From contig NZ_CP119677.1 of assembly GCF_029318685.1 (NCBI RefSeq), positions 4,703,001 to 4,767,000 on the forward strand: a DNA stretch of 64,000 bases. The letters are read 5' to 3'. The notes under the pieces are model-generated. The model did not search any database. It was given only the letters and a program-made list of their open reading frames with translations, and had not been told where the DNA came from. The DNA comes from Ruminiclostridium papyrosolvens DSM 2782. Lineage in GTDB: Bacteria > Bacillota > Clostridia > Acetivibrionales > DSM-1351. The number at the start of each line of letters is the position of its first letter. Position 1 is the stretch's first letter. A program made the translations under genes and the position numbers. Positions 1,227 through 49,779 of the stretch are shown piece by piece.

Positions 1227-1480
1227 AAAAAAACCTTCTGTCCCAAATAATACTGGGACGGAAGGTATCCGCGTTGCCACCCAAATTGCCGATAAAATTT
1301 ATCGGCCTCTCGACATAAGTACTATAAAGGGTACCAACCTTTCGATTCTTCACCGACAGCTACAAAAGTGGATAGATTCATTATTTCACCGATTTTCACC
1401 ACCCATCGGCTCTCTTGAGAAATAAATAAATCATAGCTTTCATTATCGCTGTTTATTGGTATTTTGATATATTATTCTCT
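1227..1480 (-). promoter_or_regulatory. T-box leader, serine specifier, upstream of serS
   Basis: Read on the minus strand, this holds the conserved T-box sequence GGGTGGCAACGCGG (1282-1269) followed by an intrinsic terminator, a GGGAC/GTCCC-centred hairpin with a T run at about 1266-1227. In Stem I, ACAGC pairs with GCTGT, and a GATTTATTTATTTC/GAAATAATGAATC helix closes the specifier loop. That loop presents TCC followed by A (1372-1370), a serine codon. Uncharged tRNA-Ser should stabilise the antiterminator and switch on serS. The helix assignment is by eye. Confidence 0.94.
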
Positions 1481-7087: not shown

Positions 7088-7116
7088 ATAAATAGCAAAA
7101 ATGGGTTGTTTAACCT

Positions 7117-7342
7117 GTACGCAAGTATAAATTGTATCAATGGAAGCTTGGTTAAAGATATTTGCAGATGTTTATCGGCGAACACGGATATTTTACCGGA
7201 AAACTTACACGATGTAAGTTTTAGCGAACAATGAATCATGGACGATGAATGTGAGCGACGGTAAAATATCCTATGATGAGCCGCTAGAAACTCTTGCAAA
7301 TATCTTGGAAGCAATCATTGATATAATTTTATACGGGAGTAC
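7117..7342 (+). repeat. Fold-back repeat copy A (long form)
   Basis: About 226 bp between convergent genes hydE and the PH-like gene. The outer inverted repeat pairs TATAAATTGTATCAATG (7126-7142) with CATTGATATAATTTTATA (7316-7333). Inside, AAGATATTTGCA (7155-7166) pairs with TGCAAATATCTT (7295-7306), and GGATATTTTACCG (7186-7198) pairs exactly with 7259-7271. The centre is a 10 bp hairpin, AAAACTTACA-CGA-TGTAAGTTTT. The flanks ATGGGTTGT (7101-7109) and ACAACCCAT (7375-7383) extend the palindrome further. A near-identical inverted copy is at 40026-40253. It has no ORF of its own. It could be a MITE, a bidirectional terminator or a structured RNA. Confidence 0.85.
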
Positions 7343-7400
7343 ACCGGCTAAAACAGAAAAAATTCTGTTTTGCGACAACCCATTTATTTTTTGCTAAAGA

Positions 7401-10541: not shown

Positions 10542-10618
10542 TTAACTATACGCCAGTATAAATTGTATCAATGAAAGCAAACATTGATACAATTTTATAC
10601 GGGAGTATATGTGTTAAA
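10542..10618 (+). repeat. Fold-back repeat copy B (short form)
   Basis: The terminal inverted repeats of the long copies (7117, 40026) occur here with only about 8 nt between them: AGTATAAATTGTATCAATG (10555-10573) pairs with CATTGATACAATTTTATAC (10582-10600). TTAAC and GTTAA flanks lie outside. It sits between the convergent regulator and membrane-protein genes. It looks like an internal-deletion derivative, and as RNA would act as a strong hairpin on either strand. Confidence 0.85.
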
Positions 10619-19204: not shown

Positions 19205-19395
19205 TAAACACACCCCCTATCACTCGTAGAGTTAACAGTGTACACTTACAGACAGGTATTCTGACTAAGGCATCAACACTCTCCATTCCTTCCCGGTTAA
19301 TGTACCAGTGGATTATATGGAGAACTCCTCCAACACAGCGGCGGGACCGTACAGGGTTCAAACCTGTTTCCCTTATCTGTAGTTCTTATTAAGTT
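19205..19395 (-). promoter_or_regulatory. Cobalamin riboswitch
   Basis: On the minus strand, AGTCAGAATACCTGTCTG (around 19266-19248) is the B12 box. The upstream aptamer elements are present: GGGAAACAGGTTTGAACCCTG, then GTCCCGCCGCTGTG, the usual GCCACTG-like segment ATCCACTGG, and GGGAAGG. With vitamin B12 bound, the downstream hairpin should terminate, shutting off btuFCD. Confidence 0.92.
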
Positions 19396-19404
19396 ATATT
19401 GCAT

Positions 19405-19433
19405 ATATTAATATAAAACAAGTTTAATAGCAA
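19405..19433 (-). promoter_or_regulatory. Promoter of the cobalamin-riboswitch operon
   Basis: Minus strand TTGCTA (19433-19428), 17 nt spacer, TAATAT (19410-19405), placing the start of transcription just before the riboswitch aptamer. Confidence 0.5.
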
Positions 19434-40025: not shown

Positions 40026-40253
40026 GTACTCCCGTATAAAATTATATCAATGCTTGCTTCCAAGATATTTGCAAGAGTTTCTGGCGGCTCATCATAGGAT
40101 ATTTTACCGTCGCTCACATTCATCGTCCGTGATTCATGGTTTCGCTAAAACCTACTTCATGATAGGTTTTCCGGTAAAATATCCGTCTTCGCCTATAAAC
40201 ATCTGCAAATATCTTTAACCAAGCTTTCATTGATACAATTTATACTCACGCAC
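40026..40253 (-). repeat. Fold-back repeat copy C (long form, inverted relative to copy A)
   Basis: When reverse-complemented this is roughly 90 percent identical by eye to 7117-7342: same terminal repeats, same AAGATATTTGCA and GGATATTTTACCG pairs, same flanking TTAACCTGT. The central hairpin here is AAAACCTA-(8 nt)-TAGGTTTT. Relative to copy A, one T-A pair has become C-G on both strands, and another pair C-G has become T-G, so pairing is kept. It sits between the convergent trpA and glycosyltransferase genes. Confidence 0.88.
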
Positions 40254-45053: not shown

Positions 45054-48470
<3,417 letters not shown>

Positions 48471-49712: not shown

Positions 49713-49779
49713 GCAGTATAAAATATATCAATGATATGCAAACAGCTTGGAAGCAATCATTGATATATTTTTATACGGG
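49713..49779 (+). repeat. Fold-back repeat copy D (short form)
   Basis: GCAGTATAAAATATATCAATGAT pairs with ATCATTGATATATTTTTATAC. The inner part GCTTGGAAGCAATCATTGAT matches the right end of long copy A almost exactly. Located between the convergent GT2-TPR and aldo/keto reductase genes. Confidence 0.8.

Follow-up and report, generated by a model that had tools for sequence, protein, structure and literature searches.

The four fold-back sequences found in the window, a stretch of 64,000 nucleotides that corresponds to positions 4703001-4767000 of the Ruminiclostridium papyrosolvens DSM 2782 genome (G000; one contig, 5.03 Mb), are copies of a single repeat family, which we interpret, with a probability of roughly 60%, as a dispersed non-coding MITE-like fold-back repeat that bears a terminator and is built on a fold of the TwoAYGGAY type (Rfam RF01731). 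Most likely, the element is a mobile or once-mobile repeat that brings, or replaces, a putative two-way terminator. The middle of its long hairpin would be a structured segment homologous to RF01731, and its outermost arms would be a GC stem, often with an A-rich and a T-rich side, i.e., a hairpin that resembles a terminator whichever strand is read. Such a repeat, located just 3′ of stop codons, would stand in for the ordinary terminator, and since one two-way terminator could then serve two genes, it would survive best between convergent genes. We infer that the arms actually terminate transcription, that an enzyme supplied in trans mobilised the repeat in the past, and that some of its reversals came about by inversion between the arms, others by repeated insertion. 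If the arms do terminate, the element would be a mobile two-way terminator carrying a structured RNA inside. With the terminator reporter available for R. cellulolyticum (PMC9045158), this could be put to a direct test in a laboratory species of the genus.

All four copies listed in the initial annotation are present in the window, and the terminal inverted repeats that it described do define one real family with the hallmarks of a MITE (short, non-coding, many copies). Copy 1 lies on the plus strand; the annotated ends, 7117-7342, delimit its fold-back core, but the whole unit extends beyond them to 7103-7381 and includes an outer stem, GGGTTGT...ACAACCC, at 7103-7109 and 7375-7381. Copy 3 (40026-40253, minus strand) is also full length. 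By sequence comparison, copy 2 (10542-10618, plus strand) is internally deleted with its ends kept, and copy 4 (49713-49779, plus strand) is internally deleted and degenerate, again with kept ends; at the site of copy 2, the orthologous copies in three relatives (G002, G006 and G008) are full length, and in G005 the place is taken by a plain hairpin that resembles a terminator. The outer arms are incomplete in copies 2 to 4. Copies 1 and 3 fold with energies of -88.3 and -88.5 kcal/mol (z-scores of -9.3 and -8.7), a stability that none of 200 shuffled sequences attained, and the list of open reading frames contains none of 80 or more amino acids inside either of them.

Each of the four copies is indeed situated between two 3′ ends (4/4 gene pairs convergent). 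According to Pfam, the neighbours are a radical SAM and a bacterial PH protein for copy 1, a GntR-FCD protein and a protein whose sole match, to UbiA, is below threshold for copy 2, TrpA and a glycosyltransferase-methyltransferase for copy 3, and a GT2 protein with TPR matches and an aldo-keto reductase for copy 4. The gene names given earlier fit these assignments, HydE being a putative identity of the radical SAM protein. The window also harbors a T-box leader (1251-1455, minus strand) and a cobalamin riboswitch (19234-19423, minus strand), both detected with Rfam, as well as an open reading frame of 1138 amino acids at 45054-48470 with an antisense frame of 885 amino acids across much of its length.

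The initial annotation recognised no described family in these repeats, but the core of copy 1 (7153-7308, plus strand) matches RF01731 with 49.1 bits, the gathering score being 43. Among the 16 full-length loci of G000, three reach this score (49.1, 44.9 and 43.4), four more come within 2.2 bits of it (40.8-42.8), and nine are missing from the matches at E≤1, which makes the family here borderline by score. Copy 3 itself did not appear among the Rfam matches at E≤1; its RF01731-like segment, at approximately 40055-40219, was delimited by alignment to copy 1. A covariance-model search revealed the homology from the other direction as well: when 28 RF01731 loci from other genera were searched with the genus-only model R1, built from 31 copies, 10 had matches at E≤1, seven of them below 0.002 and the best at 1e-12, although in one of the ten (L263) the R1 match lies elsewhere in the locus than the Rfam match.

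The repeat shares with RF01731 the two-hairpin core, the order of the helices and one AYGGAY-type loop. It differs in that it is embedded in a longer hairpin with terminator-like arms, and in its other loop. In an alignment of 67 full copies, from which shortened and split copies were excluded, the second loop reads ANGGA in 66 copies, whereas the first loop does so in none (0/67) and retains GGA in just six. As judged by these alignments and by the covariance-model matches in both directions, the core of the repeat is homologous to RF01731, and because the first loop has lost ANGGA while the second has kept it, we regard it as a divergent homologue and not as a canonical member.

The conserved loop evokes a different reading, which we consider quite unlikely, namely that the repeat is a distributed CsrA decoy, in which terminators release 3′ ends with an ANGGA hairpin loop and CsrA is titrated by the joint action of some 20-30 such ends. 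Binding of CsrA to RF01731 was predicted by Gardner and Eldai (PMC4333381), the loop is almost invariant in our alignment, and csrA is present in G000. Across genomes, csrA is found in 14/14 complete RF01731-positive and in 73/223 complete negative genomes (Fisher p = 4e-7, kinship ignored). However, this link is unspecific: FliM, encoded by a flagellar motor gene, is found in all 20 RF01731-positive genomes, and among FliM-positive genomes, RF01731 is present in 3 of 16 that lack csrA and in 17 of 93 that have it (p = 1.0), the three positive genomes without csrA being incomplete assemblies (80-88%). The co-occurrence, equalled as it is by FliM, was thus dropped as specific support. A decoy function also fits poorly with the loss of the motif from the other loop, with the persistence of shortened copies that have no core, and with the finding that there is no preference in orientation or in strand stability. 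The CsrA sponges of the CsrB/RsmZ type likewise expose GGA in hairpin loops, but the present repeat has one conserved ANGGA loop per copy and is dispersed at gene ends instead of forming one gene, and its CsrA binding is putative. CsrA decoying is a possible, putative function, compatible with the loop and with a csrA gene in the genome.

For the reading as a terminator-bearing mobile repeat, the placement of the copies is informative. Searches of G000 with a full and a short copy yielded 34 sites after three weak matches had been set aside: 805403, which falls within a gene, and 1415421 were judged to be due to chance, and 3780353 to be a mini form without core; site 1387918 was counted even though it is a remnant. 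Sixteen of the sites are full length by our own criterion. Many of the short copies keep only the ends, as though the middle had been deleted between two GGAAGC repeats, and we infer that this is how they arose. Gene neighbourhoods, based on genes called from codon statistics over 644 kb, were convergent at 22 sites and codirectional at 12, with no copy between divergent genes or within a gene, whereas 436 element-free gaps comprised 47 convergent, 321 codirectional and 68 divergent ones. This corresponds to a binomial p of 4e-11 for convergent enrichment when compared to 69 of all 471 gaps. Where the flanking genes are codirectional, 10 of the 12 copies are found 17-59 bases 3′ of the upstream stop codon. 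The proposition that convergent placement is unlikely to be due to chance is borne out as a strong enrichment (22/34 vs 47/436); it is no rule, since 12/34 sites are codirectional and "every copy between convergent genes" holds for the window only. In four related genomes, one of which (G006) is represented by a sample of its loci, 83 unsplit copies are distributed similarly (57 convergent, 22 codirectional, three divergent and one unresolved), and four copies split by an insertion sequence, as judged by their outer genes, are convergent and codirectional in two cases each.

The 34 sites are unevenly spread over the chromosome, in that no counted copy is found over 1.53 Mb between 1.39 and 2.92 Mb of G000 (p = 0.0003 vs a uniform distribution). 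Relatives have copies at places orthologous to this interval, and G002 has no such gap.

Beyond the ends given in the annotation, the copies have GGGYTGTYGCAAAA...TTTTGCRACARCCC-type arms, which in many cases are preceded by an A-rich and followed by a T-rich tract. The letters of the arms differ by site, yet the two sides of one copy match each other. The own arms of a copy pair with -23.0 kcal/mol as compared to -19.5 kcal/mol for swapped arms (permutation p = 0.0002, for the 88 of 124 copies that are anchored at both ends, the 36 unanchored ones being excluded; orthologues are included, such that the p-value overstates independence). The match could stem from selection for pairing, or one arm could have been copied from the other. 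A GC stem is present in the outer arms of 64 of the 88 copies and absent in 24. Among the 64, the A-rich side is seen in 29, the T-rich side in 25 and both in 14; chance would give about 0.21 per side if A or T makes up 33%, and such sides are only moderately frequent. A terminator scan at copy 1 gave no terminator, but its loop limit of 8 bases excludes a structure of this kind. The initial annotation had offered a choice between a MITE and a recruited two-way terminator; the features of both are present, such that this is no either/or, with the terminator role being putative. The position of the copies at gene ends is the one to be expected of two-way terminators. What is new in this respect is that the arms of a copy pair with each other despite their variation between sites, as would those of a two-way terminator.

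This is reminiscent of the SPRITE repeats of pneumococcus, of which 30 copies have been described, half of them (15/30) in convergent positions, and which are terminator-like and were proposed to be co-opted terminators (PMC3049150). Compared by description, SPRITE consists of an 18 bp duplex with a U-rich tract behind it, whereas the present hairpin encloses a structured core of about 150 bases.

We at first favoured the idea that the arms are pre-existing terminators which the element had entered, as hairpins with the same top are found in place of a copy at two sites: G002 at site A and G005 at site B each have a plain hairpin with arms of this type. This interpretation was weakened because the hairpin top is rare elsewhere, with two exact occurrences in G000 and a few inexact ones in the stretches covered (e.g., 2925712 and 4439841), and because five G000 positions without a copy carry different hairpins.

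The fold of the core is strongly preserved. Two-sided compensatory changes that keep the pairing were found at 18 of 43 base pairs, as opposed to a mean of 2.8 in shuffled alignments, and none of 500 shuffles reached as high a value. Natural substitutions cost 2.7 kcal/mol on average, while random ones of the same kind cost 16.1 kcal/mol, and the values for the opposite strand (3.5 and 16.9 kcal/mol) are much alike. The 211-base core is approximately 0.92 identical between species, compared to 0.59-0.71 at fourfold sites of neighbouring genes. Recent turnover may explain this high identity, yet could not alone account for the sparing of the fold.

As to the strand on which the fold is maintained, RNAalifold gives -28.6 for the RF01731 strand and -15.3 for the other. 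We considered strand-specific selection on an RNA, for which GU outnumbers AC in the alignment (75 vs 12 cells), but a single pair accounts for 38 of the GU cells. Counted as pair types, the ratio is 21 to 10 (p = 0.07), and for pairs present in the folds of both strands it is six to three. A test of stability per copy showed no difference between the strands, and the idea was dropped.

A DNA query detected the element in 8 of 10 other members of the genus and in 0 of 108 genomes outside it. The exact core pattern occurs in R. papyrosolvens C7, with flanks that match G000 loci. For 22 sites of G000, an orthologous copy was found in at least one of four relatives. Orientation was the same in 26 of 44 comparisons and reversed in 18, and 12 of the 22 sites show a reversal. 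That sites are common to related species while the orientation is so often reversed is a new observation, and if the arms terminate, these reversals between species amount to a natural experiment on the relevance of the strand. Identity was 0.925 for orthologues in the same orientation, 0.927 for reversed ones and 0.916 for other pairs (p = 0.10 and 0.07). In full-length orthologous pairs, which overlap where they belong to one site, rare variants are shared at 0.61 per pair, as compared to 0.27 by chance, with p = 0.005 each for the 23 same-way and the 18 reversed pairs. Because reversed pairs, too, share rare variants above chance, this suggests that some of the reversals happened in place.

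With respect to places without a copy, inspection by eye recognised none at site A in G003, G004, G007 and G010, and arm-like fragments in G001 and G009. Of six G000 positions at which relatives hold a copy, five have different hairpins and the sixth a mini form, again by eye. A terminator scan of two no-copy loci in G000 found a terminator at the place in one of them and none in the other. Comparison of filled with unfilled sites gave no target-site duplication that could be delimited: the hairpin at the place differs between the two, and no such pair was clean.

These comparisons also bear on the possibility that the repeats are MITEs of a purely parasitic kind, which gene 3′ ends alone tolerate and which have no role for the host, their high identity reflecting recent turnover. 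Convergent enrichment alone is what tolerance would predict, an argument also made for repeats of pneumococcus (PMC3049150); forms with internal deletions are common, and orthologues are barely more alike than paralogues (0.925/0.927 vs 0.916). We nevertheless consider this unlikely, as the excess of shared rare variants, which holds for reversed copies as well, lets some copies appear old, and as fold-sparing substitutions together with self-pairing arms point to selection on structure, even though mobility itself could demand the fold.

Regarding mobility, the split copies of G008 at first looked like an autonomous transposon, but their insert is an IS3-family element with ends of its own. 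This element, about 1.7 kb long and with the ends TGATATGCTCCC, is found in the central loop of four copies (L148-L151), at about the same point of the loop in all of them and in both orientations, which is reminiscent of palindrome-targeting insertion sequences such as those that target REP. Among the matches listed, there was no autonomous partner with the ends of the repeat, the halves separated by 1.7 kb being the four split copies of G008. In another genome (G004:C4:136554-136942), the halves of a divergent copy are about 170 bases apart, perhaps due to another nested insert.

The insertions in the loop bring to mind a structured DNA site, cruciform or REP-like, that acts at the DNA level, e.g., at supercoiled convergent ends. 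REP sequences are much shorter than the present repeat. They are also far more numerous, with over 100 per genome (PMC2817692), but REP and BIME elements are, like the present repeat, extragenic palindromes and targets of the IS3 family, specifically of IS1397 and ISKpn1 (PMC1525189). Action as DNA would agree with a fold that is kept equally on both strands. We view it as highly improbable, however, given that the family to which the core is homologous has been described as an RNA and that the RNAalifold energies favour the RF01731 strand, though the test per copy does not.

Reading the element as a mobile, terminator-bearing repeat raises the question of whether RF01731 has a similar nature elsewhere. 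The family was reported in 2010 and, in the text accessible to us, is still termed an RNA of unknown function, with no tested function given and no description of it as a dispersed repeat. RF01731 matches were present in 20 of 291 genomes of the class, 13 of which had at least two copies. This is an undercount, with at most nine candidates scored per genome under strict filters and with three carriers of the element (G002, G005 and G008) giving none. In each of 10 genomes with two fetched loci, the loci have 109-290 bases in common at 70-96% identity (in one of them, G251, what matches is a third copy within the locus). Between genera, two pairs of loci had no stretch in common, while one pair of species within one genus shared 285 bases at 96% identity. 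On this small sample, RF01731 looks like sets of lineage-specific dispersed repeats, with copies that are alike within a genome, which is a new aspect of this family. If it is a dispersed repeat, the question becomes how it spread and why it resides at gene ends, and not which single gene it regulates. Placement in 30 fetched RF01731 loci, based on a cruder gene call, is less strict than in G000 (10 convergent, 16 codirectional, two divergent and two unresolved).

A joint version of these ideas, which appears to us very doubtful, is that the TwoAYGGAY RNAs of Clostridia are mobile, lineage-homogenised hairpins used as terminators, whose GGA loops serve as small CsrA decoys. If true, dozens of gene ends would together make up a regulatory sponge, with a selfish repeat as its carrier. 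As a separate observation, one of the fetched loci (L103, 2815-2977) contains a sub-threshold match to a PyrR binding site (51.4 bits vs 54).
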